A model generated the notes under the pieces. The model was not told the origin of the DNA, searched no databases, and worked only from the letters and a program-made list of their open reading frames with translations. Positions 3,615-30,699 of a DNA stretch of 30,931 bases are shown here, piece after piece (within the stretch, counting starts at the first letter, position 1; each line of letters opens with the position of its first letter). Made by a program: the position numbers and the translations under genes. This stretch comes from a virus: IMG/VR virus record IMGVR_UViG_3300025319_000074, positions 1 to 30,931 of that record; one strand, given 5' to 3'.

Positions 3615-4340
3615 TTAGTCAATTGTCAAATGAACAAAGCCCATCGTTGAATCAGTTGATGCCACTTCCCTACTCCAACCAATCCAAGCTGAGGAAGCGT
3701 CTGTCTCAGCCGCCGGTTTAACTGAACCCGCTACTGATGCCGATGGAACTATTCCCGTTACGCCGTTTGAAGTATTTGTGCCGTCGTCAAAGAGTGCCGC
3801 ACAATCTCCTCCTGACTGAATCCATCCATAGTAGGCGGCAGTCATGGCGTAAAGAGCAATCCCAACTGCTCCACCTGTTTGGGTGGTTGCCGGATACTGA
3901 ATTACTCCATCATAAGCATTTTTCCTGACTGAAACTTGTGAAGATGTAGTAAGGGCAATTTTGACTGCTCTGTCAACATAGAACTTGCAAGTACCGGTTG
4001 TTGAAGTCTGAACATCATGTCTTACGATCTTGAATACCTGCCCAATTCCGGTTGAAGATTCTACAACCAAATCTCCTGATTCAAACTGATTGGCAGTAAC
4101 TGCTGTCCCACCCAAAGTTACGGGAATCATGGTGTCCCCGATTGCAACTGCCGCCTGAACTACCATTGAGCGGAAGTTAGTGACTTCTGCTGCTTCCTGA
4201 AGAAGATTCCCTGTAACTAAAGCCGAAGCACCAGCCTGAACATAGCGGAATTTTCTGCCAAATGGGTCAATATATAACTCCCCCAGTTTGTGCTGTTGTC
4301 CTGAACTTTCGTCGTATATGTTTTGTAATATATCTGTCAT
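3615..4340 (-). CDS. Probable capsid decoration or head-associated protein
   Basis: 241 residues, beta-rich, beginning MTDILQNIYDESSGQQHKLGELYIDPFGRKFRYVQAG. The phrase 'G.....D..GR.FRYV.aG.salv.G.l' is a pattern I associate with proteins encoded directly after phage capsid genes. It begins 1 nt before the TAA of the MCP (coupled start) and has a GGAG 6 nt upstream. Co-transcription with the MCP and the terminator directly downstream imply that it is needed in similar amounts, as decoration proteins are. Exact family not recognised. Confidence 0.75.
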   Translation of the reverse strand: MTDILQNIYDESSGQQHKLGELYIDPFGRKFRYVQAGASALVTGNLLQEAAEVTNFRSMVVQAAVAIGDTMIPVTLGGTAVTANQFESGDLVVESSTGIGQVFKIVRHDVQTSTTGTCKFYVDRAVKIALTTSSQVSVRKNAYDGVIQYPATTQTGGAVGIALYAMTAAYYGWIQSGGDCAALFDDGTNTSNGVTGIVPSASVAGSVKPAAETDASSAWIGWSREVASTDSTMGFVHLTID

Positions 4341-4341
4341 A

Positions 4342-5409
4342 TTAAACTCCCGTTATTCCGGTTAGCCTCCCATGGCGTTTCGGGTTGAACGTAACTTGAT
4401 TGCCTAGTAAGTAAATGTGCGCAACCTCACCATATTGGTTGATCGGTCTCAAAAAGCCTGTCCACTGAAATCCGGTGTTCTTAGATGGAGCTTCAGAATA
4501 AACTCCCTCAATATCCGCAGTCCCAAGACTTATGGATTCAAGATCAGGATCGTTGAGTCCATACCAGTCAATATAGTTCTCGTTTGCCGCCCAAAGTGTC
4601 TGTGCGGTAGACTTCTCATCCGCAATCCAAGGAATACCCCTGAAAGTAAGAGCAACATACCCTGCCGCGCCTTTAAGTTCTGCCGAACGAATAGGAGCCT
4701 TTGAAGTCCTAGTCATCATCGGAAGTCCGGTTGATTCGTAAGTTGCCTGTTGTGTAGGAGTCAACAGAGATTCATATAAATCCCAGATCGTCTCATTTGA
4801 AACAAAGACTGTCGGACGTTGCCGTGCCGCCGATCCTGCGGATACAGCTGAAATGAGAGTTGCAATTTTTGTTAAAGTTAAAGTTCCACCCGAAGCAGTT
4901 CGTGTTCCTTTAAGAGTGGGATAAGTAGTCCTTGAAAGTCCTCCGAGTGTAACGACAGATGTGTTGTCATCTATCAAAGCATCCCAGCCTAAAAATTCTT
5001 TGTTTGAATTACCAGTTCCATCCGCATAGAGTATTGTACCGATATCATCAAGTGCGTCCTCTTGGGCAGATTCTGTCTCAACTCGGACTAAGTTAATAAC
5101 CTCAGCCTCTGTTCTATTGACCGCCTTCTCCATTCCTGGAATCGCGATTGGCATCTCATAACCTCTCGTATCATAAGACATCAAAACTCGGGTATCAACT
5201 GTTGCAGTAGAATGGGTGTCCATACCCGAGAAAGAACCACCTAGAGTAGATTTAGTAACTTTAAGAGGGCGATCAAGTGTATGTCCCGACCATTTCTTAG
5301 CGTTTGAGATGATTCTAAAGGTAATCCAGTTATCTCCGAGAATAGTATCAAATACCTTGGGAAGGATTGTGTTTTGAGTGATTGTAGTGACGCGATTTCC
5401 AAATACCAT
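4342..5409 (-). CDS. Major capsid protein, HK97-fold type
   Basis: 355 residues. The order of elements fits HK97-fold capsid proteins: N-terminal arm, E-loop-like beta region (about 45-95), a long helix (about 99-125), the LYADGTG turn at 127-133, then GWDALIDD and the GGLSRTTY...LK....ASGGTL segment at 156-177, and the A/P-domain remainder (FVSNETIWDLYESL, FRGIPWIAD, 'GFLRPINQYGEVAHIYLLGNQV'). It follows the portal and two small genes, has its own strong promoter (5468-5496) and is followed by a probable decoration gene and a terminator. The 156-185 segment recurs in the small protein encoded between the GroES and GroEL genes. No separate scaffold or protease gene was recognised between portal and MCP. 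Confidence 0.88.
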   Translation of the reverse strand: MVFGNRVTTITQNTILPKVFDTILGDNWITFRIISNAKKWSGHTLDRPLKVTKSTLGGSFSGMDTHSTATVDTRVLMSYDTRGYEMPIAIPGMEKAVNRTEAEVINLVRVETESAQEDALDDIGTILYADGTGNSNKEFLGWDALIDDNTSVVTLGGLSRTTYPTLKGTRTASGGTLTLTKIATLISAVSAGSAARQRPTVFVSNETIWDLYESLLTPTQQATYESTGLPMMTRTSKAPIRSAELKGAAGYVALTFRGIPWIADEKSTAQTLWAANENYIDWYGLNDPDLESISLGTADIEGVYSEAPSKNTGFQWTGFLRPINQYGEVAHIYLLGNQVTFNPKRHGRLTGITGV

Positions 5410-5417
5410 GTTTTAAT

Positions 5418-5448
5418 AAAAAAGTCCGAAAGCAAAATGCTTCGGACT
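5418..5448 (-). terminator. Terminator-like hairpin in the MCP leader
   Basis: An 11-bp stem with a single bulged A (arms at 5423-5434 and 5438-5448) and a 3-nt loop is followed on the minus strand by six T residues. It lies in the ~50-nt leader between the MCP promoter and the MCP ATG, and the U-tract ends 8 nt before the ATG. It could be an intrinsic terminator acting as an attenuator, a boundary for the upstream operon, or a stabilising 5' hairpin. Confidence 0.7.
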
Positions 5449-5467
5449 CTTTTGGTCTCTTGTTAAT

Positions 5468-5496
5468 AGTATATTGACTATAACATATCTTGTCAA
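5468..5496 (-). promoter_or_regulatory. Sigma70-type promoter of the major capsid gene
   Basis: TTGACA, a 17-nt spacer, then TATACT on the minus strand: a near-consensus housekeeping promoter. Predicted start is near 5461, about 50 nt before the MCP ATG. It is one of the strongest-looking promoters in the window, matching the high demand for capsid protein. Confidence 0.8.
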
Positions 5497-5500
5497 GCCC

Positions 5501-5707
5501 CTACTTTTTTTTAGCCCTCATCTTCATAACATGCTTTTTCATTGCCATCTGAGAAGGTTTACCTGTAGGCCGCCACGAAGAATGCTCAACAGCATTTAAT
5601 AAATTTCTTTGGGCTAATGCTTTTCTAAGGGAAGTTGACTTTGCCTTCGTTCCGCTAGGCGTGCTAACAGAATATGAATGATCCTTTTTTGAAATTGTTA
5701 CTGGCAT
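5501..5707 (-). CDS. Small basic protein between portal and capsid genes
   Basis: 68 residues, strongly basic (ends MKMRAKKK), with a Ser/Thr-rich centre (YSVSTPSGTKAKSTSLRKAL). No family recognised. The ATG lies 2 nt after the stop of the preceding gene, consistent with coupling. The position between portal and MCP is where scaffolds or small head proteins are often found, but this protein is short and not obviously coiled. A nucleic-acid-binding role is possible from charge only. Confidence 0.7.
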   Translation of the reverse strand: MPVTISKKDHSYSVSTPSGTKAKSTSLRKALAQRNLLNAVEHSSWRPTGKPSQMAMKKHVMKMRAKKK

Positions 5708-5709
5708 AA

Positions 5710-5904
5710 TTAAACAAACACTCTCATTCTTGGATTTTTTGTATTTTTAATTCCCCTTCTATACATATCCATTCTTATTTCTTCTACGGACTTTGGCATA
5801 GTTTCATATCTTTTATCAAACTTAAAAGCCCTGTAGCGTAACGCACGTATAAACTCATCTCTTGACATTCCCCTTATGAATTTCTTTTCATCTTCAAGTA
5901 ACAT
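5710..5904 (-). CDS. Small helical protein after the portal gene
   Basis: 64 residues, MLLEDEKKFIRGMSRDEFIRALRYRAFKFDKRYETMPKSVEEIRMDMYRRGIKN..., charged and helical. The frame is open from a TTG at 5919, but the ATG at 5904 is chosen because GGAGG lies 8 nt before it, embedded in the last codons of the portal gene. Function unknown; DEFIRALRYRA followed by SVEEIRMDMYRRG may form a small helix-turn-helix-like bundle, without clear DNA-binding residues. Confidence 0.75.
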   Translation of the reverse strand: MLLEDEKKFIRGMSRDEFIRALRYRAFKFDKRYETMPKSVEEIRMDMYRRGIKNTKNPRMRVFV

Positions 5905-5909
5905 TTTGA

Positions 5910-7886
5910 TTACCTCCAAGAATTCCTCTGACTCGGTCTATTATACCCCCACTCTGTTCTTGTTGCCCCCCCTTGCTCCCCTTGTCCTCCCAAACCCTGT
6001 TTTGCGGCGTCAACAGTTGCCCTGATATGTTCAAGCATTATCCGCTGAACTTCAGGATCAAGCTGTTTGAAAGCGGGAGACTTAATGAATTGACTGAAAT
6101 ACGCTAAATACTCTTTAGTAGGATTTTGAGGTGGCGGAACATTCTCTCCTGCTTGTATTCTTTGAATCGCTTGCATAGCATCCTGATCTCCGCCTGACTG
6201 GCCGATCTTAAGAACCTCGGCCGCGTATTTATCGGGCATAAAGAGAAAGTAAAAAAGTCTAGTCGCAAACTCACGGGGCTTGTCTATGTGCCACTTCTCG
6301 GCAAATGACAAAGGATCAATTCTGCCGCCGATCTTAGCCAACTCTACCGCTTCCTGCCTGTCGGAGAGCTTATCCTGCGGTGCCATAGAACCCGCCTGAA
6401 CGAAAATTTGAACCCCGTCTTCAATTCTATCGGATGAAAAGTTGATAAATGCCCTCTGTCCATCCTCTCCAACGTAACGGCGGATATGTTCCTCTTTCGC
6501 GAAAACCTTATAAAGCTGAGTTATGTGATGGAAAACCTTAGTCGCCCCCGTTTCCATAGACTCAACCAAAGTCGTAGTCCTGCCAAGATCGGAACGTTGT
6601 GACATAACCTCCTGGCCTAATGTCGGAGATTCGGTCTTTTCTCCTCGTAATGGAGCGTGAGTCCCAAAGATATTATCAATCTCAGCTCGGGCGTCAAGTT
6701 TGTCCTGATAAACATAACTCGGAAGAAGTGGGGCCGGAACACGGGCAAAAGCGGTTCGCACATCTCCCTTAACTAAAATGTTTTGTCTTGGATCACCGAC
6801 ATACTTCTCGGCGGCCCCAGCGTCAATCTGCATAGTGTTGAAAATCTTGGCGGCAACCGCCTGATCTGCGTTCTCAACAATCTGACGGCCTCTTTTCTCC
6901 AAAACATCCTGCAAAACGGCAGCCTGTTCGGTTAGGGAAGTGTCATCATATACCCATCGCCCAATTCTCAAGAAATTAAAAAGGACATAGGGTTTCTCAG
7001 GTTTCTCCAGGAAATTGCTCTTGGATGAATCTTCATAGTTATAATAAGGATTGATTCCATAGTCTAAGAGAAGTTCGTTATACTTCCAGCAAACTCCCTC
7101 CCTCTTGATTCCTTTATCGTCTAAGAAGGAAAACCAAATTTCCTTGTAGCCCAACTTGGACCCCATGTTGACTTTTGCGCCCATGCCTTTTCCGACTGTC
7201 TCTATTATTTTATCTTTCTTATCGGGGAACTGATACCCTAATTCTTCAACTGTTTTTGATAAGGACTCGGCAATCAAAGGAACATTGTCTGGGTCTTCGG
7301 CCGATTCGTCTATGATTATCTTATGCGGTCTGATAAAATTAAGAGCGATGTCCCCTGTGTAAGTATCATTCTCCGTAAGCCTCCCTCCGTTAAAATCCCA
7401 TGAAGTCTTAACAACTCCTAAGCGATAACCCATAATTAAGTGCCGCGCGACCATCTGAAGATGCCCTTTAAGTAAATTATCCTTAGCGGTTTGCTGTAAG
7501 ACCTTAGAGTAGTTTGAAGCAAGTTCCCGTGATGCATCTGTATCTTGCGCCTCTATGACTTCGGGAGACGGAAGGCGGGAAACAATATTTGAAGCCAAAG
7601 TCTCAACGGAAACGAATATTCGGTTGTCTTTATAAGGAACTTGATAATCATAGAGGGAGTTAGCTCCTACTTCAAAATTTTGGTTAAGGTATCTCTTCTC
7701 GTTATCTTCGCGAGTTTTTTTAAGATCAAGTTTTTCGTTCCAGAATTTCTCCCCATCTCCAACGCGTCTTCCGATAATCTCAATAATTCTTTCGGGAGTC
7801 AAGGAAAGTGAAAGAGCATCGGCGCGGGATAAAACTTCCTCCCTAAGTTCGGGGTTTGATAAAGTATCGGTTCGGTTTGGTTCCAT
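5910..7886 (-). CDS. Portal protein
   Basis: 658 residues, the size of P22-like portals, located directly after TerL and the Com-like gene and before the MCP. Features: helical N-terminus with WNEKLDLKKTREDNEKRYLNQNF, then VPYKDNRIFVSVETLASNIVSRLPSPEV (a typical portal start: entry region, 'n.i...v...va.l...p'), a central region with long stem helices (VLQDVLEKRGRQIVENADQAV, KLDARAEIDNIFGTHAPLRGE, then TLGQEVMSQRSDLGRTTTLVES) and a Gln/Gly-rich disordered C-terminus (GLGGQGEQGGATR). It forms the dodecameric ring at the capsid vertex through which DNA passes. A leaderless promoter lies exactly 6 nt before the ATG. Confidence 0.88.
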   Translation of the reverse strand: MEPNRTDTLSNPELREEVLSRADALSLSLTPERIIEIIGRRVGDGEKFWNEKLDLKKTREDNEKRYLNQNFEVGANSLYDYQVPYKDNRIFVSVETLASNIVSRLPSPEVIEAQDTDASRELASNYSKVLQQTAKDNLLKGHLQMVARHLIMGYRLGVVKTSWDFNGGRLTENDTYTGDIALNFIRPHKIIIDESAEDPDNVPLIAESLSKTVEELGYQFPDKKDKIIETVGKGMGAKVNMGSKLGYKEIWFSFLDDKGIKREGVCWKYNELLLDYGINPYYNYEDSSKSNFLEKPEKPYVLFNFLRIGRWVYDDTSLTEQAAVLQDVLEKRGRQIVENADQAVAAKIFNTMQIDAGAAEKYVGDPRQNILVKGDVRTAFARVPAPLLPSYVYQDKLDARAEIDNIFGTHAPLRGEKTESPTLGQEVMSQRSDLGRTTTLVESMETGATKVFHHITQLYKVFAKEEHIRRYVGEDGQRAFINFSSDRIEDGVQIFVQAGSMAPQDKLSDRQEAVELAKIGGRIDPLSFAEKWHIDKPREFATRLFYFLFMPDKYAAEVLKIGQSGGDQDAMQAIQRIQAGENVPPPQNPTKEYLAYFSQFIKSPAFKQLDPEVQRIMLEHIRATVDAAKQGLGGQGEQGGATRTEWGYNRPSQRNSWR

Positions 7887-7892
7887 GTATTG

Positions 7893-7901
7893 ATTATATC
7901 A
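7893..7901 (-). promoter_or_regulatory. Extended -10 promoter TGATATAAT of the portal gene
   Basis: TGATATAAT, 6 nt, ATG at 7886. It lies 9 nt after the stop of the upstream gene. At the -35 distance the sequence is TTCTTT, so recognition would depend on the extended -10. Confidence 0.7.
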
Positions 7902-7910
7902 CGAATAAAA

Positions 7911-8165
7911 TTACCAAAGAAAGCGATATTTTATACGGCAACGGGTACAAAGAACTTCAAGTGAAGATTTATTTTTAGGAGTTTCCCCCGTATCTATAAC
8001 AGCAACTACCTCTGATTCATACTGACATAATAATTTTGAACAATTAAAACATCTAAAGTTTCTTTTAGTACCCGTCGCAAAGTTAGCTAAAAAAACAGTA
8101 ATAAACCTTTCTTCCTCCGTATAGATAGGTTCCAAATCGTCATTTTGATTGTCGTAAAATTTCAT
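7911..8165 (-). CDS. Com-like zinc-ribbon protein
   Basis: 84 residues from the ATG at 8165, which overlaps the TerL stop (ATGA); an in-frame TTG at 8177 is a less likely start. The C-terminal half has FRCFNCSKLL followed about 35 residues later by LEVLCTRCRIKYRFL. This is the pattern of Mu Com-type zinc proteins (RC..C.klL ... leikCprC...n), which in Mu bind mRNA to activate translation of a DNA-modification gene. Here it sits between TerL and portal, a common place for Com-like proteins in other phages. The N-terminal 35 residues are acidic and unassigned. Confidence 0.7.
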   Translation of the reverse strand: MKFYDNQNDDLEPIYTEEERFITVFLANFATGTKRNFRCFNCSKLLCQYESEVVAVIDTGETPKNKSSLEVLCTRCRIKYRFLW

Positions 8166-9766
8166 AGCGATTTCCAACCACGCTTATTTCTCGCGCGTTC
8201 TAAAACCTCTTCTATATTAAGAGCGGGAACAGTCCCGTCCTGAGATACAAAAGCGCTTCCCTTATGCCCTCCAGGGGGAGCCGGAGTCGCAATCCGCCCT
8301 TGACCTATGGTCTGTTCCAAAGCTATACGCCAATAAACCATAGCGTGCGCAAAATGGTCTGGCCGTCCTTCTATAGTTTCCCATACAGGTTTCTTAATTC
8401 CTTCAGAAGTATCCTTGATAATGCGGTATACATTCTTCCAATGGGTAATATAATCCTCAAGGGCGTTCTCTGTAAGGTTAAATACAACATCTTTGGAGTT
8501 AATCTCTGAAACAACCGAATCAATAATTTTGGTACGATCCGACTTGACAACCATTCCGTCCCAACGGATGACATCAAGGGTCTTCTTGTCCGACTGGTAA
8601 TAATGGATAAAAACTCGTCCAGGATATTTACTTGCCAACTTCTGTGGGGTGTTTGGGTAAGGGTTCGCATCAATTACCATTATAGCACCGAAGTGGTTTC
8701 TCAAGCGTTCAATCTCCTCCCAATCTTCGGTTGATCCGATCTGGAAGATTCCGTAGCGGTTTCCTATAACGTAGTGTTTAACAACCCCATTATCAACTCC
8801 TATGGCAACGTTTGTACGAGGATTATACCCTGGGGAAAGACATTTAATTATCGCCTCCCGTGTCACAGAAGTATCCTTGGAAACAAAAGGAAGTCCTAAA
8901 ACAAAATTATGAAAAATATCCTGATCTCCCTGTGATTTTTCTATGATCTGCTCGGCCGAAATCCATGGGACAAACATCTGGGAAATCCAGTAACCTGAGG
9001 TATCAGACTTCGTTTTATAAACCCAACGGCCGTTTTTAAGATCGGTCTTAGTCAAGGGTTCGTGGCATTTGGCGCAAATTCTGATTTTACGGTCAAAGTC
9101 TATGTTATCGGGAAAAGAAAGATACCAATCGTAAGAACAGTACCTACATTTGACAAACCAATGCTTCTGGTCGGATTTTACCCACAGGGCATCAACTCCG
9201 TATCCAGGGATTGAGGGGTTTGAAAAAGCCCACTCCCAGCCAAGTTCGGGCCGTTCACGTTTTGCGTCGTCTAATCTTGACCTGTAAGTTTTTAAGACCT
9301 GCTGGTTAGACCGGTCATACTCGTCGTTTATAAGAATATGCGCGGAAATAGAAATCGCCTCAGTCTGCTCAAAAGAACCCCTATAATAGATATATCTATC
9401 CCCGACCTGCTTTAGAGCAACTGAATCCACCCCGATCATATCCCTAAGAACTTTATTTCTTGCAATCAGGGGATCAACTTTCGGAACTACGAAGTCTTTA
9501 GACATATTGCGTGACGGAAAAGTATGGATGATATTCGCTCCGGCAAACCTTGCGAGATGAAAGGAACGAAGAATCGCCATTGTAGAATACCCAATCTGCG
9601 CGCACTTTAAGATAACTTGTTTTGGAGTATTATCAAGATAAGGATCAATCATAAATGAATGATCCTTGAACTCAAAAGGAGAGCCGTTTTCGTTGACGAG
9701 GTTGTTTGACAAAATAAAACTTATGCAATTAAAGGAAGCGGCTTGAACGAGATCTAGTTGATTCAC
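8162..9766 (-). CDS. terL: Terminase large subunit, lambda gpA-type
   Basis: 534 residues. The N-terminal ATPase shows the gpA-family P-loop variant KCAQIGYST (54-62) and a Walker B ILINDEYD with D148/E149, followed by the coupling segment FSNPSIPGYGVDALW and a zinc-ribbon insertion (C207/C210 and C231/C234). The C-terminal RNase-H-like nuclease begins around VAIGVDNG (D is a likely metal ligand) with MVIDANP later. It packages DNA into the prohead through the portal. The start is GTG at 9766, overlapping the stop of the HNH gene (GTGA). HNH-TerL-portal order is typical of cos-type packaging modules. Confidence 0.92.
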   Translation of the reverse strand: MNQLDLVQAASFNCISFILSNNLVNENGSPFEFKDHSFMIDPYLDNTPKQVILKCAQIGYSTMAILRSFHLARFAGANIIHTFPSRNMSKDFVVPKVDPLIARNKVLRDMIGVDSVALKQVGDRYIYYRGSFEQTEAISISAHILINDEYDRSNQQVLKTYRSRLDDAKRERPELGWEWAFSNPSIPGYGVDALWVKSDQKHWFVKCRYCSYDWYLSFPDNIDFDRKIRICAKCHEPLTKTDLKNGRWVYKTKSDTSGYWISQMFVPWISAEQIIEKSQGDQDIFHNFVLGLPFVSKDTSVTREAIIKCLSPGYNPRTNVAIGVDNGVVKHYVIGNRYGIFQIGSTEDWEEIERLRNHFGAIMVIDANPYPNTPQKLASKYPGRVFIHYYQSDKKTLDVIRWDGMVVKSDRTKIIDSVVSEINSKDVVFNLTENALEDYITHWKNVYRIIKDTSEGIKKPVWETIEGRPDHFAHAMVYWRIALEQTIGQGRIATPAPPGGHKGSAFVSQDGTVPALNIEEVLERARNKRGWKSL

Positions 9767-14206: not shown

Positions 14207-14698
14207 TTATTTATTTTCATCATTCCTAAAAATAACTATCATTAAAGGTTTTATGTAGCCAACTTTTCCATTTTTAATTTCCTCAAAAGTTCCATTTTCA
14301 TGTCCAAAATTAAAACCTCTTTTCGGTTTTTCTAAAAATCTCACTTCACATCTAGGATTATTATAAATATATTTGTGAAAATATCTTGTATGAGTAGAAG
14401 CGGGAAGAAGCATAACTGTTATGCACTTGCTTTCAAATGCCTTCTTTACAAAATCTCCAATATGCATATCAAACATAGGGTGGCAATAAGCTACTTCTCC
14501 TGTCCATTCTTTATCAAGACAAGAATTTTCTTTCGTATAGTATTTTGGGAGTAAAGCATTATTATCAGAGGCACAGGCATCAAGCGTAAAAGGAAATTCA
14601 TTTTTAAGATTCTTCCAAATATCCAATGGCGTTCTAATAAATCTATAACTTTTAGATGTCATAAAACTTAAAGTATTTTTAGCAATCACTCTTTTCAT
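14207..14698 (-). CDS. Phage Dam-like adenine methylase homologue with altered catalytic motif
   Basis: 163 residues, close to the usual size of phage DNA N6-adenine methyltransferases of the Dam phage family. RTPLDIWKNLKNEF, FTLDACASDNNALLPKYY (SAM-binding region, D40), EWTGEVAYCHPMFD, VMLLPASTHTRYFHK and VRFLEKPKRGF follow family order. The catalytic NPPY/DPPY tetrad is replaced by HPMF (73-76), so methylation may be lost or altered; the protein could act as a DNA-binding decoy or regulator. An intact DPPY methylase domain is present in the giant protein at 24239-29686. Confidence 0.72.
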   Translation of the reverse strand: MKRVIAKNTLSFMTSKSYRFIRTPLDIWKNLKNEFPFTLDACASDNNALLPKYYTKENSCLDKEWTGEVAYCHPMFDMHIGDFVKKAFESKCITVMLLPASTHTRYFHKYIYNNPRCEVRFLEKPKRGFNFGHENGTFEEIKNGKVGYIKPLMIVIFRNDENK

Positions 14699-18113: not shown

Positions 18114-18117
<4 letters not shown>

Positions 18118-18374
18118 TTTAACACAGCTAAAATATCCTGAAAACCTACGAACATAATCTCCTTTGCGTCAATCCAAAACTTGAACTCCCCGAACTTCCG
18201 GTACGCAACGATACTCCCAAATTTAAAAGGAACAGGAAGCTTTCCCGACCCTATGGCAATAACCTCTCCTGTCTCTGGCATATTCTTCTCAACCACTTCA
18301 ATAGTCCCCTTTGTAATAGAGGGTAGAGTTGTAGGTTTAAGCGCGACAATTTTGTTTGATGGTTGAATTTTCAC
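18114..18374 (-). CDS. groS: Phage-encoded co-chaperonin GroES
   Basis: 86 residues with a GTG start in a GTGA overlap; AGGAG lies about 7 nt upstream. KIQPSNKIVALKPTTLPS (first strand, as in NIRPLHDRVIVKR), a short mobile-loop region with GTIEVVEK (the IVL-type tripeptide reads TIEV), TGEVIAIGSGKLPVPFKFGSIVAYRKFG and EIMFVGFQDILAVLK follow the GroES fold. It is about 10 residues shorter than E. coli GroES, mainly in the mobile loop/roof region. T4 gp31 is a precedent for a phage GroES-like protein specialised for its capsid protein; here GroEL is encoded too. Confidence 0.9.
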
Positions 18375-19627: not shown

Positions 19628-19822
19628 CTAACTAAACTTAGTATTATTTTTTCGTTTAGTTTTGTTCCTTCTATAAATATTATTTCCCACCCATATTTGC
19701 TGAATGATTTTTCCCTTTTCTTTTGCTTTTTTACTCATCTCTTTTTTCCATTCCTCCGAATGTTTTACCCCTGCCTTAAACCATCCTTTGTTTATCCCTT
19801 TTCTAGGTGTCCCTTTAGGCAT
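19628..19822 (-). CDS. Orphan NUMOD3-like DNA-binding peptide
   Basis: 64 residues, very basic. KGWFKAGVKHSEEWKKEMSKKAKEKGK resembles NUMOD3 repeats (GKKHSEE.K.KiS...kgk) that serve as DNA-binding modules of GIY-YIG and HNH homing endonucleases. No nuclease domain is present in the peptide or fused to it. It may be a remnant of a homing endonuclease or an independent DNA-binding protein. GGGGG lies 6 nt before the ATG, and it overlaps the nuclease gene by 8 nt. Confidence 0.6.
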   Translation of the reverse strand: MPKGTPRKGINKGWFKAGVKHSEEWKKEMSKKAKEKGKIIQQIWVGNNIYRRNKTKRKNNTKFS

Positions 19823-20501
19823 AGTTTTCCCCCTCGTACCCTACTTGTTTAATTAAATCCTCGTTCATCCATTCCCAAAGTGCTTTACAATTAAGAAAAA
19901 CATCAAACCGGGGATTGACAGTCGCAAATTTATACTCCCCATCCTCCTTCAAAAGAAGAACCCCAATCTTGGGCGCTATCCCACCTAGCGCTTTCTGATA
20001 AGCGGAAAGCTGAAGCGTAGACTCTAAATAAATATCCTTACCGGTTTTAGCATCTATAAGGTAATCTCCCCCATTAACTCGCACCAAAAGATCAAGCGTC
20101 CCCGCATATTTGTAATCTTCATTGATAACTGTTTTCTCATTTTCTACAATTTCAATCTTATTGCCTCCAACCCAAGAATAGAAAGCGTTTGCGTATCCTT
20201 TAAGATGTTCAGGGACAGTATCAATAACCGCCCCCGTTTTTTTATAAGCTTCTATTAATGAATGAATAGTCTTACCTCGTTCCTGAGCTTTACCAGTAGT
20301 CTTGTATGGAGCAGAAAGAGCCTCTTGGCGAGATAAGTTTGGATTGATAATCATAGCGTTGTAAACTTGATCCCCGTACCAATATCTCAATGCGGGTTTG
20401 TCCAAAATCTTCAAGACATTTGTAACGCTTACGTAAGGTTTTTCGTTTATCCAGTAAAATTCGCCCCGGCGTTCATTTTTTTTATCTTGTTTATCTTTCA
20501 T
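19815..20501 (-). CDS. PD-(D/E)XK exonuclease, RecB/Cas4-like
   Basis: 228 residues. PYVSVTNVLKILDKPALRYWYGD (N-terminal helices typical of this family), TTGKAQERGKTIHSLIEAY (H motif), YAGTLDLLVRVNGGDYLIDAKTGK with the catalytic D of GTLD, then DxK (DAKTGK), and LQLSAYQKAL (Q motif). These are all the active-site motifs of the RecB-like nuclease superfamily; phages use such nucleases in recombination and replication. GGAG lies 8 nt before the ATG. First large gene of the early operon. Confidence 0.88.
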   Translation of the reverse strand: MKDKQDKKNERRGEFYWINEKPYVSVTNVLKILDKPALRYWYGDQVYNAMIINPNLSRQEALSAPYKTTGKAQERGKTIHSLIEAYKKTGAVIDTVPEHLKGYANAFYSWVGGNKIEIVENEKTVINEDYKYAGTLDLLVRVNGGDYLIDAKTGKDIYLESTLQLSAYQKALGGIAPKIGVLLLKEDGEYKFATVNPRFDVFLNCKALWEWMNEDLIKQVGYEGENYA

Positions 20502-22332: not shown

Positions 22333-23100
22333 TTAGGACAATGCTATCGTGGCTTTCTCTATTTTTCCTTGAAGTTCTATAATTTTCTTTGCCTTATCAG
22401 ATATTTCCTTATCGGAAGTCTTCTTATATGTCTCAAATTCGCTTAATAATGCCGTGTATTTGGCCTTATAATCCTCAGATGGGGTAGGTGGCGGTGGTGG
22501 CGGTGTCGGGGTAGAAATAGCAAGTTTTGGGTCAGGATAACCGTCCCACCTGTCATTTACTATCCTGTCTCGTAGAGTGTCTCCACCCGTATCCCAATTA
22601 CTTCCAGGACATGCCGTTGCCATAAAGTTTTTATGTCCCTTAATATCATCCCAAGAGTCAAGTTTTGGATATTGGGGCATGTTGGTAATAAAGTGTTTTG
22701 CGAGAAGATGAGAGGAGTGAACTTGTATCGCAGTTGGGAGTTCTTTTGTAAAGTCTCCTACAAAACAAGCAGAAAACATAATATCGTTTTTGTTTAATAC
22801 AGCACTACCTCCGTGTGATAAATCCCCTACATAAGCAACAGTTCCATCAGAGCAGATTATAAAACGGTAACCTACTCCTCCCCAACCTTGATTTATATGA
22901 AGATTGGCAATCGTATCACATTCCTTCTTCCAATTACCGTCAACTTTAGCTGTTTGCTTAGTAACGGAATGATGAAAGGTAAAATAAATTATATTATTGG
23001 CATTAATAGTTGGACCCCAATTATAGGAATCTCCAGGTATGGGATCACGATAATCCTGGAATTTTGATCCAAGTGATGGTATTGCTACACTTACTGGCAT
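22333..23100 (-). CDS. N-acetylmuramoyl-L-alanine amidase endolysin
   Basis: 255 residues. Amidase_2/PGRP fold: YFTFHHSVT with zinc ligand H43 or H44, GVGYRFII, the catalytic-type region DLSHGGSAVLN and GHKNF...ACPGSNWD with ligand H156 and C164. A Pro-rich linker (about 197-208) leads to a C-terminal coiled coil (208-255) rather than a usual wall-binding domain. It cleaves the amide bond between muramic acid and the peptide stem. A leaderless promoter lies 6 nt upstream of the ATG. Confidence 0.9.
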   Translation of the reverse strand: MPVSVAIPSLGSKFQDYRDPIPGDSYNWGPTINANNIIYFTFHHSVTKQTAKVDGNWKKECDTIANLHINQGWGGVGYRFIICSDGTVAYVGDLSHGGSAVLNKNDIMFSACFVGDFTKELPTAIQVHSSHLLAKHFITNMPQYPKLDSWDDIKGHKNFMATACPGSNWDTGGDTLRDRIVNDRWDGYPDPKLAISTPTPPPPPPTPSEDYKAKYTALLSEFETYKKTSDKEISDKAKKIIELQGKIEKATIALS

Positions 23101-24238: not shown

Positions 24239-27200
24239 CTACTGGCTTAACTCCTTTAAAAATTTAGATTTATTAAACGTTTCTCCTCCTCCCAAGTCCT
24301 TTAAAAACTCAGATTTATTGAATTTTAAACTACCTCCGTTACCCTTTGTTTTACCTTCTTCTGGTGGAAAAAACAAGCCCTTAAGTGCGGGACCGACTAT
24401 AGGGACATCTCTGATTACCTGCTTGCCAATAGGGGCGGTTCTTGATTTAACCTCTTCCATACCCTCTTTAGTTTTCCTATCCTTAGTTAACTCCGCAAGG
24501 GCATATATATAGTCTACCCCCATAGACAGGCTTGGTCCTGCCAAAAGACTATACACTCCAAGCTTTCCATACTGAGTAGCTTTTATAGTATCGGTAAAAA
24601 CATGACCATACCATAAGTAGTTTTCAAATGCCCTAGCGAATCCTTCCTTGTCTCTCTTGCGCCCACTAATGACTGCGTAAAGATCATTCATTATCTCCCC
24701 AATTATTTGATATCCTATCCCAGCTGCTAATAATACTCCTATAACAAAAGCAAAATTTTTATGCTTAGTCTCTTCGTAAACAATTTTTCCCAATTCAGTG
24801 CTATTCTTGGAGTTAAGAAACATAAAGCTTTTCCATTGAAAAAGAAGCTTGAGAGCAGGATGAGATTTAAAACCATACGGCAGTTCTTCTATTTGATACG
24901 AAAATTGCGTATGGTCATTTAGATATTGTGACGCATCTATTAAGTCTTGTTTGGATAGCTCACCATTCGTAAGGGATTTTGTGATATCTATTCCAATTCT
25001 ATCAAATACTCTCCTTGCTGGTTTATCGGCAGGGTTTCTCTGTAGATCGCTAAAATAATTTTGCGCCCAATCCCTTGCGGTATTGGCGGTAAAAATTCTG
25101 TTTAAGTCTTCTACCGGGGAGAATCTAATTAAACGCAGAAATCTTCTAACTATATCTGCTGGTCCTCCTGTTTCCTGTATAAATTGTTTCTTTGAACTAT
25201 CTAATAGCACACCCGTTCTTGTCGCCCACTCTTTTTCTCTTTGGGTAGCTCTAGAACCAAGAGCTGATTTTAATATATACGGGTTCCAACCTTTAGGACC
25301 TGTCCAAATTAAAGTTTGAAGTCTTTGAGTAAGGTTGGCAAGGGTAGTCATAGGAGTAAATTTTGTAATAACCTGAATAGCCCCAACTAGGTTTGCAAGA
25401 TCTGCCCACGCATCCGCACTTACTGTTTTCCCAAGAGCTAAATCTAAACTTGCAAGAACCTGTTTAGCGTCTCCTCCTTCAACAGCTATTTGGTTAACTA
25501 ATCCGTATGCCTTTTCATCTGCCATTCCCAAAAACTCCGCATCCGCAATTCTGTGCCAAGCGCTGTCAAGATACGTGGGGATTACTTTACGTGGATCTCG
25601 TTCATAGATAGGAAAATCAACCTTTCTTGGTTTTTCTAAGTTGCCGTACCTGCGGGCAACTTTTCTTAAGACAACCTGATTATACATTGACTCCGCTTCC
25701 GTTATTGTCTGAGCTTTGCCCATCTGAACTACTTTAACAAGAGCGTCTTTTCTGGCTCGCGCGCTTTTAATAATCTCCTCCGGGACAAAATGAGGGAAGT
25801 AGTTGCTTCTAAATTTAATATCAAGCCCTAGCCTCTTGGCAATAGCAAAGACTTTAGTTTTTTCTCTCCCCCATACTTCAACAGCATTCTTTAAAGCAGG
25901 AGTATCAGGAGTTAATCCATCTTCTATAACAGAAACGAACTTTTTAATATCTTCGTCCGAAAGCTTATTGAGGACAGGCTCTATGTCAGCGATAGCATTA
26001 CCTGCGTAAGAATCTCCTTTGTGTCTAGCATCCAAAAGCATCTTAGATAATTTCTTCCCTGGCTCTCCCTGTTTTTCCATATAGTCTCTAATTGAATTAG
26101 TGATCAATGATCTCATTGTATTCGCTATTGATCTCTCATATTCCTTTCCCATCGCTACATCAATCCCCTCTGCAGTTGCCTTGCTTATTAACCTTGATAT
26201 TTCATTAGCAAGTTGGACAGGTGTTGCTCCTGGCCCTAGTCTTTTGCCGAGACTCTTGGCTAGCTTACGAATACTTCTGATTTCCTGTTCCTTAACAATT
26301 CTCTTTTCTTTTTCGGCTTGCCGGATTAGTCTTTCGGCAACTCTCTCTTTTGTTCTAGCTGTAGCCTCTGCAAGAAAAACCCGTGGTTCTTCTGCACCTT
26401 CAAGAAAAGACGCAATCTCTTTCTTGACGGACTCAACACTTCGTAAGGTTTTAAACTTCTCCCCCATTGCTAAGTTTGAGACTACAATTTCTTTTCTATT
26501 CTGGGCTGAAAGCGGGCTAATATTACGGACTACCTCCATGCCCTCCTTAGATAAGCGAGCTATCCTTCCTTCAAGTTCGTCTAAATAAACGTTCTCCAAT
26601 CCAGCCTTAGAACTACGCGAGGATGGTTCATTGTTAAAAAATACAAACTTAACCCCTCTATTATTCAAAGCTTCAATCTTGGTCAGTAAATCCTTGAAGC
26701 CCTCTGCTTTTTCCATACTTGAACCTACTCCATAACCTGATGACCAAATATAGGGCGGGTCAATCCAGAGAAAATCCGAAGGTGTTCCATTTTTAATATA
26801 ATAGTCTAATTTCTTTAAACCATCTTCTGTTGTAATTTTGACGTCTTTGAAAGTCTTTGAAAAGTTAGGGACAGCCTCTTCTAACGCACGAAACTTATCA
26901 ACTGAAATATCCGTTTTAACTCTCCCCGCGACTTTATCAACTAAGTTAGCCCCCGCCATAAAATCTTTATTATTCTTAAGCTCGGGATGAGTATAAACAA
27001 AGTCGGACAACCAGTCCGATTCGGGATTTCTAAGATAATAATTCTTGATGGCCTTAACATACTTTAAAACCTCATCGGGACTCTTAATTGATTGTTGAAT
27101 AGAATTGACTACCGCTGAATCAAGTTCGTTATAGGTAATTTTTGCATTAGGAAATATCTTCTTGGATAGGCTTGAAAGTAAGCCCGATCCTCCAAAGACA

Positions 27201-29686
27201 TCCTCAACGTTAGTAATGTCTTTAAGATGGGCTACGTCCTTATCGGTTAAACTCCCGATATTGTTTTTCTGAATACCCAATGTGTTAAAGACATATCCCA
27301 CCATCCCTCTTTTGTTGCCTAATCTTAAAAGTGGTATATTTGTCCTTACCCATTCCTTATTTTGAGTACCTCTAAGGGTATATCTGGACTTGGGCAAGAA
27401 AAATTCCCCCTCTATTGAAGATAGACTCTCGTCTACTTTTGATACTAGGAATTTTTCCTTTGGAGTAATAGGTTTACCAATTTTCTCATCAATATTAAAT
27501 GTCAAATCTTCCAACGCTCCCAGACTATCGCCCACCTCAGTATCATTCTTGAGAGATTGAAATAAGGCATAGTCCTGTTTATAATTACCAGATGACCCGA
27601 CTATATTTCTGATTTGTCTATTAGCCCAAGCTCTAAGTTTAGGCAATTGTTCGGGTGACGAAGTTTCTATTTGGTCACTTAGGCTTTTTAACTTATCCAC
27701 ATATTCTTCTTGTGTTTGAGATTCTCCAACAAAACGATCAAGCTTTTCTTCATAATTTTCTTTAGTTAAGGATTTAATCGTTACTTTAGCTTCGGGGGGT
27801 GCTTTGGAAACTTCTGCTTCCTTCCTTGTCGGTGGTTTGCCGAAAAACAAGAACTCAACTGCCTCCTTGATATTCTCGTCCGTTGTATCAGGGATCTTCA
27901 GCTCCTGTTCGGGATTCATAAAGGAAGCAGGAATCAGATATCCCTTCTTTTCGCCTAGCATTTTAGCCTCATCAGCCCGGGGTAGATAAAAACCTTCTAC
28001 GTCTCCTGCTGGCCAAGCTGTCTCAACGATAACATATCGCTTCCCCTGTGGTCCTAAATCCTGTTCGTAAACTTCCCCTTCTAGAAATTCCCCTGTTCCT
28101 TTCCTCGCACTGCGGAGAAGATCGGCATTATCAGAAATAACTCTTGTAGTACTAGGTTGAATTTTAAGCTCTTTCTTTAGTGGTGCTTTTGCGATTGGTT
28201 GTTTCATAAGAGAAGATTTATCAATAACAAAAACATGATCCCCTTGTTCTCCTCCTCTTAACACTAAGGCATCATACCCAGCATCCCTGAGGGCCTTACT
28301 CATAATTAAATCCATAGAGGCATCAAACTTATTAGCTTGGCTTTCGTTTAATACTGTTTTGGCAGTGTTATACTCTATCCCCGCATCGTAAAGAGCATTC
28401 ATTAACTCTATATCTACTTGATTCTCAGATAACGCTTCTCCTACGTTAATTTTCCCATACAGAGAATTGCCGATATCTACATATTTTTTTGGTATAAAGC
28501 TTTCGTACCCACTATTAATAATTGAAAACGAGCCATCCTCTAAAATAGCATCTTCAATAACCAAAGGTTTCTTAACAGATACATTAAATTTATATTCCGT
28601 TTGACCTGCAATTCCCTCAGCTCCCTTAATAGCATTGAGCCCTTTTTCATCAGATACCCATGTACCACCTCTAGTGGCAAAAGTGGTCTTATTGGGTTCG
28701 TTTGCCAATCTAATCAAAGTTGTCGGTATTTTCCCAATCGGCTGTTGTGCGATGGGCTTAGGTTCTAGTTGAGCCGAAGGAGTCTTAACGGGAACAATTT
28801 CCTTCCCAGTCTTGGCTTCCTTCCTCCAAAGTGATGATACCCAATTTCTTAATCCTGTAATATCTAATCCCGATGGTGGTTCGGCTGAAGTAACAACCTT
28901 AAAATCTTTTATAAACTGATCAAACTTGACGGGATCTCCTCCTTTGTCCGGATGGAGACTTTTAACTGTGTTGTTAAATTTAGAACGTAAAGCGGTGGGA
29001 TTATCTTTTAAGCCAAATCCGTACTCAGAGAGTCTTGTACGGGCAGCTCCAAGTTCGGTAGAAGGAACCCCCTTTAATGGACTAGGGCGGATAGTTCCAA
29101 AGGCAAACCCGATAACGCCAGCTGTGGCAAGAGTCCGAGGGTCTTGTTCTTCTCCTTTTAGACCAGAAATCCCCGCTTGAATACCTGTAAGTAAACCCGC
29201 CATCTTTGTTCCCGATTTAACAAGTTGTCCAACCGTTTTCGCTACTACAGGTGCTCCTGCGCCAAGCGGAGCATAAGCTCCAAACGTAGTACCTAATCCT
29301 TCTTCAATAGCAACACCTAATCTCTTTCGGGCTTCCTTGCCAGCCTTATCTTCGCCAAAAAACTCTTTAATAGGGATAGCTTCTCTGGGTTTCTTCTCCG
29401 GCCCGAGAAATCGTTCAAATCCCGGGCGTTCATAGGCGGGCTTAACGATCTTCCCTTCCCCTCTTTTAAAAGGGCTAGGTAACTCGCCAACTTTTTTGAT
29501 TACCTCTCTAGTAGGTTGAACAAAAAGCTTTTCGGTAATCTCCTTAGCTTGTCTTTCAAATTCTTTCTGCTTCCTTCGGGCTTCTTCTTTCTTGCGACGT
29601 TTCTCTTGGTTAGTTTCAAATAAATCCTTACTTATCTGAAATAAGTTGATTCCTTGAGGTTGAAAAAGGTTTCTGAATAACTCCAT
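24239..29686 (-). CDS. Giant polyvalent virion-type protein: J domain, ART-like region, D12 adenine methylase
   Basis: 1,815 residues. In order: basic helical start (27-50); Gly/Ala-rich hydrophobic segments (about 130-200); J domain (about 205-265) with HPDKGGD at 245-251; ADP-ribosyltransferase-like region (about 320-495, ending RDAGYDALVLRGGEQGDHVFVID), as in polyvalent proteins; D12-type N6-adenine methylase (about 785-1075) with PLLRLGNKRG, DVFGGSG (829-835) and catalytic DPPY (976-979); a long helical region with SNYFPHFVPEEI (about 1294-1305); a membrane span (about 1645-1672); and two C-terminal copies of FNKS-x-FLK-x-L. Polyvalent proteins are thought to be injected with phage DNA and protect it. 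The lysozyme-like neighbour fits this. Confidence 0.85.
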   Translation of the reverse strand: MELFRNLFQPQGINLFQISKDLFETNQEKRRKKEEARRKQKEFERQAKEITEKLFVQPTREVIKKVGELPSPFKRGEGKIVKPAYERPGFERFLGPEKKPREAIPIKEFFGEDKAGKEARKRLGVAIEEGLGTTFGAYAPLGAGAPVVAKTVGQLVKSGTKMAGLLTGIQAGISGLKGEEQDPRTLATAGVIGFAFGTIRPSPLKGVPSTELGAARTRLSEYGFGLKDNPTALRSKFNNTVKSLHPDKGGDPVKFDQFIKDFKVVTSAEPPSGLDITGLRNWVSSLWRKEAKTGKEIVPVKTPSAQLEPKPIAQQPIGKIPTTLIRLANEPNKTTFATRGGTWVSDEKGLNAIKGAEGIAGQTEYKFNVSVKKPLVIEDAILEDGSFSIINSGYESFIPKKYVDIGNSLYGKINVGEALSENQVDIELMNALYDAGIEYNTAKTVLNESQANKFDASMDLIMSKALRDAGYDALVLRGGEQGDHVFVIDKSSLMKQPIAKAPLKKELKIQPSTTRVISDNADLLRSARKGTGEFLEGEVYEQDLGPQGKRYVIVETAWPAGDVEGFYLPRADEAKMLGEKKGYLIPASFMNPEQELKIPDTTDENIKEAVEFLFFGKPPTRKEAEVSKAPPEAKVTIKSLTKENYEEKLDRFVGESQTQEEYVDKLKSLSDQIETSSPEQLPKLRAWANRQIRNIVGSSGNYKQDYALFQSLKNDTEVGDSLGALEDLTFNIDEKIGKPITPKEKFLVSKVDESLSSIEGEFFLPKSRYTLRGTQNKEWVRTNIPLLRLGNKRGMVGYVFNTLGIQKNNIGSLTDKDVAHLKDITNVEDVFGGSGLLSSLSKKIFPNAKITYNELDSAVVNSIQQSIKSPDEVLKYVKAIKNYYLRNPESDWLSDFVYTHPELKNNKDFMAGANLVDKVAGRVKTDISVDKFRALEEAVPNFSKTFKDVKITTEDGLKKLDYYIKNGTPSDFLWIDPPYIWSSGYGVGSSMEKAEGFKDLLTKIEALNNRGVKFVFFNNEPSSRSSKAGLENVYLDELEGRIARLSKEGMEVVRNISPLSAQNRKEIVVSNLAMGEKFKTLRSVESVKKEIASFLEGAEEPRVFLAEATARTKERVAERLIRQAEKEKRIVKEQEIRSIRKLAKSLGKRLGPGATPVQLANEISRLISKATAEGIDVAMGKEYERSIANTMRSLITNSIRDYMEKQGEPGKKLSKMLLDARHKGDSYAGNAIADIEPVLNKLSDEDIKKFVSVIEDGLTPDTPALKNAVEVWGREKTKVFAIAKRLGLDIKFRSNYFPHFVPEEIIKSARARKDALVKVVQMGKAQTITEAESMYNQVVLRKVARRYGNLEKPRKVDFPIYERDPRKVIPTYLDSAWHRIADAEFLGMADEKAYGLVNQIAVEGGDAKQVLASLDLALGKTVSADAWADLANLVGAIQVITKFTPMTTLANLTQRLQTLIWTGPKGWNPYILKSALGSRATQREKEWATRTGVLLDSSKKQFIQETGGPADIVRRFLRLIRFSPVEDLNRIFTANTARDWAQNYFSDLQRNPADKPARRVFDRIGIDITKSLTNGELSKQDLIDASQYLNDHTQFSYQIEELPYGFKSHPALKLLFQWKSFMFLNSKNSTELGKIVYEETKHKNFAFVIGVLLAAGIGYQIIGEIMNDLYAVISGRKRDKEGFARAFENYLWYGHVFTDTIKATQYGKLGVYSLLAGPSLSMGVDYIYALAELTKDRKTKEGMEEVKSRTAPIGKQVIRDVPIVGPALKGLFFPPEEGKTKGNGGSLKFNKSEFLKDLGGGETFNKSKFLKELSQ

Positions 29687-29692
29687 ACCATA

Positions 29693-30238
29693 TTAGTCAA
29701 ATGGATTCCACCAATCCCCTTGTTTTTTTGGTGTGTACTCTGATAATACAGGAAAATCTTCCGGAACAAATCCTTCGGACAGGATATAAGCTTCTATATC
29801 TTCCCTGGTTTTATTTGCCTTTATTGCTCTTATAATATTTTCTTCTACAACCCGACGCTTGCGTTCCGCTGCTTCCGTTGGAGCTTTTGGAGCTATTGGT
29901 GGTTCTTTCCATCTTTGCTGTACTGACTGTGGTTCTTTCGGTTTTCCATACTGACCTGCTGTCGGCCCCTTCATGTACTCTTCTTCTATTTCATAAGGTT
30001 CAATGATCTGTCCATACTTAGGTCCCAACTCATAATACGGCACGCCCTCCATAGCATCTTTTCTTAACGCTATTCGTGCCCTATTTTTCTCCCTTTCGTC
30101 TTCCGTTCCAACCGACTCAGTTTTACCGTATTGCTTTGTTTTTGTCGTTAAATACTGGTCTATCTTATTTAACGGATAGCCTTTCGCCACCATAGCGTTT
30201 CTGAATTTATTTAGTTTTACTGGATCTAGTTCTGCCAT
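29693..30238 (-). CDS. Virion-type protein sharing its N-terminus with the transglycosylase protein
   Basis: 181 residues. The N-terminus LDPVKLNKFRNAMVAKGYPLNKIDQYLTTK resembles that of the protein at 30247-30699 (KDKLRQFGIGMLQKGYSMDQVKKFIMRR): KL..F...M..KGY.....I/V..F/Y. A second similar turn occurs near the end (TREDIEAYILSEGFVPEDF). The centre is charged and Pro-rich and probably disordered. The shared module may target both to the same virion compartment. No enzymatic motif. Confidence 0.68.
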   Translation of the reverse strand: MAELDPVKLNKFRNAMVAKGYPLNKIDQYLTTKTKQYGKTESVGTEDEREKNRARIALRKDAMEGVPYYELGPKYGQIIEPYEIEEEYMKGPTAGQYGKPKEPQSVQQRWKEPPIAPKAPTEAAERKRRVVEENIIRAIKANKTREDIEAYILSEGFVPEDFPVLSEYTPKKQGDWWNPFD

Positions 30239-30246
30239 AATTTATT

Positions 30247-30699
30247 TTATAAATAGCCTAGTTTTCTGGCTGTATTATGCCAAGGTTTCCATCCTTGTCC
30301 TCTCCACATATCGGCAGCATATTTAGTATTAAATTCAGGGTCAAACAATTGTTCTTTTTTCGGCCTTCCTGGTAGTCCCCGAATTTGGAATAAACCATAA
30401 GATGGCGCGTAAACCCCGTTTATAGGATAATCATCTCCCACCGCATCCGATCTCCCTCCCGATTCGCCCATCATAACATTATAAGCTCTCTGCCATTCCT
30501 CTTGGGGGAAGTATTTCTTTATTAAATCCATCTGGTTTCCGCCTTGAGGCGTTGACTGAGATGTTGATTGAGATGTTGGTTGAATAGTCGCTCTATTACC
30601 CAAAGCCACTCTTCGCATTATAAATTTCTTTACTTGATCCATAGAATAACCTTTCTGCAACATTCCTATTCCGAATTGTCTCAGTTTGTCTTTATCCAT
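30247..30699 (-). CDS. Lytic transglycosylase-like virion protein
   Basis: 150 residues. A short helical module (1-35), a Ser/Thr/Gln-rich linker (QPTSQSTSQSTPQ), then a goose-lysozyme/SLT-like domain: WQRAYNVMMGESGGRSDAV with catalytic-type E79, YAPSYGLFQIRGLPG (the S.GLFQI motif) and FNTKYAADMWRGQGWKPW. It would cut glycan strands of peptidoglycan. Position beside the giant protein suggests a wall-opening enzyme carried in the virion for DNA entry rather than an endolysin. Confidence 0.85.
   Translation of the reverse strand: MDKDKLRQFGIGMLQKGYSMDQVKKFIMRRVALGNRATIQPTSQSTSQSTPQGGNQMDLIKKYFPQEEWQRAYNVMMGESGGRSDAVGDDYPINGVYAPSYGLFQIRGLPGRPKKEQLFDPEFNTKYAADMWRGQGWKPWHNTARKLGYL

Follow-up and report, generated by a model that had tools for sequence, protein, structure and literature searches.

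A J domain recurs as an N-terminal module of giant polyvalent, putatively ejected proteins in metagenomic phages

Results

A giant protein with an N-terminal J domain

Analysis of the window, the whole 30,931-nucleotide stretch of viral DNA considered here, established by profile, fold and conservation that its giant protein carries a J domain near the N-terminus. Seven giant proteins of metagenomic phages, 1743-2115 aa long, have at the N-terminus a hydrophobic segment followed by a J domain with intact HPD, a module that precedes at least five unrelated bodies or cargoes among them. The first-pass annotation had called the combination unusual, and the claim is both upheld and extended: sequence comparison shows that the J domain recurs as a module at the N-terminus of giant proteins of the injected type and is no isolated oddity. 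J, ART-like, adenine methylase and virion-body regions are joined in the window protein, which thus has the two or more disparate domains in one polypeptide by which polyvalent proteins are recognized. The features are as follows.

24239..29686, minus strand: giant ORF, 1815-aa polyvalent, putatively ejection-type protein
29075..29239, minus strand: moderately hydrophobic segment rich in Gly and Ala, residues 150-204, which opens the portable module
28877..29062, minus strand: J domain, residues 209-270
28946..28954, minus strand: HPD tripeptide, residues 245-247
28811..28876, minus strand: conserved J-tail with a W..NLW.K-like motif, residues 271-292
28211..28729, minus strand: ART-like domain, residues 320-492
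27467..27781, minus strand: helical domain before the methylase, residues 636-740
26465..27352, minus strand: D12/Dam-class DNA adenine methylase, residues 779-1074
24242..26302, minus strand: C-terminal virion-protein body, residues 1129-1815
24698..24754, minus strand: membrane span, residues 1645-1663
29693..30238, minus strand: 181-aa gene directly upstream of the giant ORF
30247..30699, minus strand: SLT_3 lytic transglycosylase, presumed member of the ejection cassette

The giant gene annotated at first pass is a single unbroken frame with an ATG start and has relatives of similar size. Searched whole, the 1815-aa protein gave no significant Pfam match, and its sole PHROGs match was to phrog_56 DNA methyltransferase (residues 829-1071, E 5.2e-6). 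Terminase, portal and major head protein are encoded elsewhere in the window, which, to judge by the 43-45 kb of related contigs, appears to be only part of a genome. Other genes on its minus strand encode GroEL (PF00118, 16280-17872), GroES (Cpn10, E 1.7e-6, 18114-18374), an exonuclease (phrog_298, E 7.5e-28, 19815-20501) and an amidase/endolysin (phrog_822, E 1.6e-15, 22333-23100).

The window's J fragment alone matched Pfam DnaJ below the cut-off (E 0.1). The A10 profile of seven sequences matched 14 J-domain chains in the PDB, with polyomavirus T antigens best (E 0.0012) and a complex I subunit, DNAJA1, Sis1 and auxilin also among the matches, and hhalign comparison with cellular J domains gave P 96 and E 1.8e-9. 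An AF2 model (mean pLDDT 73) has helices at residues 209-220, 230-244 and 252-266 and places HPD in the loop between the last two, the position between helices II and III that it occupies in J-domain proteins. Fold searches returned polyomavirus T antigen J domains (1.8 A over 51 columns) and the J domain of 8iuf_E6 (Z 4.5). Residues 219-270 were the most conserved part of the N-terminal region in the three-sequence A1 alignment, with 60% pairwise identity versus 27-37% in the preceding segments. These lines of evidence agree on the J domain first proposed from the letters HPDKGGD (residues 245-251); the profile matches, the structural matches and the recurrence in seven members rule out a chance occurrence of HPDKGGD. 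Stimulation of DnaK is a prediction from the HPD-containing fold; counting against it, the basic residues at the helix II positions of DnaJ K26/R27 are not retained in the window sequence.

Relatives are mosaics reached by two routes

Direct whole-protein searches of annotated phages and IMG/VR found no relative. Relatives were reached via the terminase, which gave 80 related contigs that were then searched with the giant protein. Five were found, L091 (2115 aa), L092 (1986 aa), L093 (1987 aa), L094 (1332 aa) and L095 (1376 aa), and they proved to be mosaics, each with different parts in common with the window protein. L091 shares the N-terminus, ART-like region and methylase; L092 shares the N-terminus and methylase without the ART-like region; L093 shares the ART-like region and methylase without a J domain. 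L094 matches only in the C-terminal body (52-56% identity) and L095 only in residues 1-50, while the methylase also occurs in two further contigs, L103 and L104. The L092 giant protein (3745-9705, minus strand) ends in a GH19 chitinase/lysozyme-like domain (Pfam E 3.5e-7).

The second route was a search of 2.9 million viral contigs with a DNA pattern for LHPDKGG[DN], which yielded 78 stretches. Nearly all in-frame matches lay in proteins of 355 aa or less; the giant proteins that matched were L092, already known, and four new members, L158 (2074 aa), L127 (at least 2036 aa), L145 (2109 aa) and L180 (1743 aa). The four matched the window protein with BLAST E values of 1e-18 to 1e-52 over 140-350 residues and share with it HPD, the Gly/Ala-rich segment common to all seven giant proteins and, where the aligned piece reaches, the W..NLW.K tail defined in the seven-member alignment. 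Because these four of the seven were retrieved through the HPD motif, an unbiased view of its conservation comes only from the window, L091 and L092, in which the tripeptide is invariant.

A true double membrane hairpin at the N-terminus was considered and is unsupported for the window, where hydropathy is only about 1.1. In L127 a GNAT domain was suspected by eye, and Pfam gave it no support. In the J-module protein at L193:130-6354, two HExxH zincin-like motifs lie at residues 575 and 1331, and the methylase DPPY motif is absent. Among 84,980 genomes, searches with the J module returned nothing but ordinary cellular J proteins. A plasmid-borne DnaJ-domain protein was one weak match, and isolated phages, mostly Klebsiella phages, gave only weak matches (E 0.2 or worse).

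J-like N-terminal domains in which HPD is replaced by YPR or FPK were seen in L094 (640-4638) and L103 (7218-12209), which share the window's body or methylase. Both lie at a similar place in the chain, fall below the Pfam DnaJ cut-off (1e-4 and 3.6e-5, respectively) and resemble J domains of cellular proteins in hhalign comparison (P 90). Direct hhalign comparison of canonical and HPD-less modules gave no alignment, so their common origin is unproven. No J domain was seen in L093 or L104. With two relatives HPD-less and two J-less, Hsp70 is therefore not needed by all such proteins, and the canonical J element, as far as sequence can tell, is common but dispensable among them.

ART-like and methylase cargo

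Residues 320-492 had no Pfam match. Their structural matches were a chain of the cyanophage A4 pre-ejectosome (PDB 9k3a, stretch 1421-1594), which was best at a weak Z of 5.1, followed by MbcT (5.0), AcrIF11 (4.7), NatT (4.5) and ParT (4.2). The region also matches ART-PolyVal-like phage models, and all ART fold matches are below strong significance. Invariant residues are R326, R339-GGTW, D384-GS, Y394, GYD at 470-472 and H484. Polyvalent ARTs usually carry an H-Y-D signature (PMC5512222). This Tox-ART-HYD2 pattern, whose H, Y and D sit in strands 1, 2 and 5, respectively, is absent here: the first predicted strand has the invariant R326 and the second has GGTW, and neither has an H or Y that is conserved. 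The annotated ART-like region thus stands as a fold with matches at Z 4-5 and lacks the polyvalent signature; with moderate confidence we describe it as ART-like, closest to RES-type ART toxins, with putative activity. The domain is common to L091, L093, L107 (a 344-aa protein), L110 and L111. In L110 (5775-9269) and L111 (1-2112) it is fused to Phage_Mu_F (MuF) head proteins, and L111 also has a sub-threshold match to the ATLF metallopeptidase family.

The methylase called from its DPPY motif was confirmed as Dam/D12 class by motifs and fold, with predicted activity. FGGSG (motif I, about residues 831-835) and DPPY (976-979) are invariant in six sequences, and besides the phrog_56 match the model gave a Foldseek E of 1.6e-6 and Z scores of 15-17 to Dam, T4Dam and DpnM and 18.0 to Mcbe1, with the next fold at 11.8. 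Mean pLDDT is 62, and much of the catalytic core reaches 75-95. A preceding helical domain, seen in alignment A6 and in the model, is conserved with the methylase. The methylase region had no relative among 84,980 genomes.

A virion-protein body in a putative ejection cassette

The C-terminal body matched phrog_6958, 'virion structural protein', in the window (E 0.0019) and in L094 (4e-5), and hhalign showed a distant relationship to the LUZ24 gp50/KIT05_21 family (P 92.7, E 4.1e-7, 221 columns). It contains one strong membrane span (residues 1645-1663, hydropathy 2.03) with a counterpart in five relatives whose bodies are complete. Of the membrane segments annotated at first pass this one stands, and those near the N-terminus are only moderately hydrophobic. 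The L145 body matches the 'internal virion protein' phrog_6651 (E 2.2e-13). Pfam found no polyvalent-specific LPD domain in the window protein; LPD38, which is listed as a phage-type polyvalent domain, was seen in the sister J-module protein L180/L210 (Pfam E 1.3e-45).

The 181-aa gene next to the giant one is related to a 436-aa protein of the L095 cassette, over the C-terminal part of the latter. An upstream gene of about 390 aa is related across several of these phages, and distantly in the phage of L180 too. Small peptidoglycan hydrolases adjoin the giant genes of the window, of L091 (a weak match) and, judged by eye, of L094; the one in the window is the transglycosylase already recognized at first pass, now assigned to SLT_3 (Pfam E 1.1e-9). 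Judged from gene order, the layout is that of a podovirus ejection cassette. The proposed domain order and virion context therefore hold up, with a body homologous to virion structural proteins and a transglycosylase adjacent. From the late position and this homology we infer that the giant protein is packed in the virion and ejected, and it may serve defense evasion, as was first suggested.

Discussion

What the J domain may do

Large phage proteins that are ejected must somehow pass a narrow channel and regain their fold in the host, and a J domain that is kept while cargo and body vary is a concrete candidate for a host-chaperone link at this step. In the reading we favor, with about an even chance of being right, the window protein is a polyvalent protein that is ejected and, through its J domain, brings host DnaK in cis to the chain itself, to help it enter or refold. 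A podovirus-like phage would use an internal virion protein, whose body carries the membrane span, to deliver ART-like and methylase cargo along with the genome. The hydrophobic segment and J domain would be a separate portable module that, once in the host cytoplasm, engages DnaK via HPD and loads Hsp70 on the same incoming chain. Hsp70 would then pull the chain inward, refold cargo that had been unfolded for portal and tail passage, or both, after which the methylase could act on incoming DNA and the ART on host proteins. T7 gp16, for comparison, refolds once past the channel (PMC8954989).

The same module precedes at least five unrelated bodies or cargoes, so its role is not cargo-specific, and a constant module before variable cargo points to delivery, refolding or packaging as the step that the proteins share. 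No Hsp70 gene was found in 12 records, several of them fragments, so a phage-supplied Hsp70 was set aside and the J domain would have to use that of the host. By analogy with Pam18/Tim14, which brings Hsp70 to the import channel of mitochondria, a class of ejection proteins might share a constant membrane-plus-J module that makes host Hsp70 the motor or refolding engine for entry of protein, and perhaps DNA, with swappable cargo behind; we offer this generalization tentatively, as something that may well prove wrong.

Host and phage chaperones are classic players in phage morphogenesis, and the J domain could instead act in the producing cell, with host DnaK keeping the new giant chain soluble for procapsid packaging and no role in entry. 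The window's lineage does encode its own GroEL (in seven of the 12 records, which come from related phages or carriers of the J module, and all seven belong to this lineage), and the window GroES as well. However, the GroEL-encoding L093 and L103 have no HPD J domain, and the J-module phages G081-G084 have no GroEL in the available sequence; the GroEL and J-domain links therefore do not track each other, and we consider a role confined to the producing cell unlikely. Action of the injected J domain in trans, diverting host DnaK/DnaJ for infection or blunting chaperone-dependent phage sensing, appears improbable. The phage J protein RB43 Rki binds host DnaK and stabilizes sigma32 (PMC3486835), and bNACHT25 requires host DnaJ for phage sensing (PMC12169576), but few copies of the giant protein would be injected, and a J domain tethered at the N-terminus of a large membrane-associated chain, together with the conserved hydrophobic segment, fits action in cis better. 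Least probable to us is a J fold that is simply a structural helical element of the ejection module, with no Hsp70 engagement: L094 and L103 have lost HPD yet keep a J-like fold, as this would allow, but conservation in the N-terminal region is highest over LHPD(K/R)GG(N/D)P, including in L091 and L092, which have about 35-38% overall identity and were found without an HPD search.

If host DnaK is indeed recruited in cis, DNA adenine methylase, ART-like enzyme and host Hsp70 would be linked in one putatively injected polypeptide. The findings suggest that some phages may enlist the host Hsp70 chaperone to import or refold injected proteins.

Comparison with known systems

Among podovirus ejection proteins, T7 gp16 included, the analogous features are a large internal protein, a membrane span and lytic transglycosylase activity within one unit; here a neighboring gene encodes the transglycosylase. 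T7 gp16 is not known to have a J domain or a methylase, nor is the cyanophage A4 pre-ejectosome known to have a J domain. Described homologues of the body, Vibrio phage KIT05_21 (a member of phrog_6958) and its homologue LUZ24 gp50 (annotated as virion structural or phage particle protein), also share the late position. They are shorter, at 927 aa and about 1055 aa versus 1815 aa, and no J, ART or methylase was seen in the KIT05_21 searches.

RB43 Rki (gene 057w), the first functional phage J protein, also has a phage-encoded HPD J domain and recruits host DnaK (PMC3486835), but it is a separate type III J protein, outside any giant virion-type protein and not described as a virion protein. 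Jumbo-phage DnaJ is likewise a separate gene (PMC7824862), as are DnaJ and ART in Poorviridae phage Y3 (PMC11654794); a DnaJ central zinc domain inside a DNA polymerase is an exception to this rule (PMC9038755). The open-access literature searched holds no description of a J domain joined to an ejection or internal virion protein, though one may exist elsewhere. What appears new here, at the level of sequence, is the hydrophobic segment and HPD J domain as a recurrent module of polyvalent/ejection proteins.

Polyvalent proteins, including P1 DarB, likewise join several unrelated activities in a very long chain near late genes (Iyer et al. 2017, PMC5512222). Adenine methylases and ARTs are common there, and the sister J-module protein has LPD38; the main text of that paper contains no DnaJ, J domain, DnaK or Hsp70, and a predicted chaperone-recruiting domain would enlarge the polyvalent repertoire. 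The DarB-type methylase is EcoKI/TaqI-like and forms a dyad with an SF2 helicase, whereas that of the window is Dam/D12, and neither Pfam nor PHROGs matched a helicase family in the giant protein. A second, stand-alone adenine methylase (PF05869 Dam, E 6e-17) is encoded at 14207-14698 on the minus strand, beside an HNH nuclease gene; the phage thus appears to have one expressed-type and one putatively virion-type adenine methylase.
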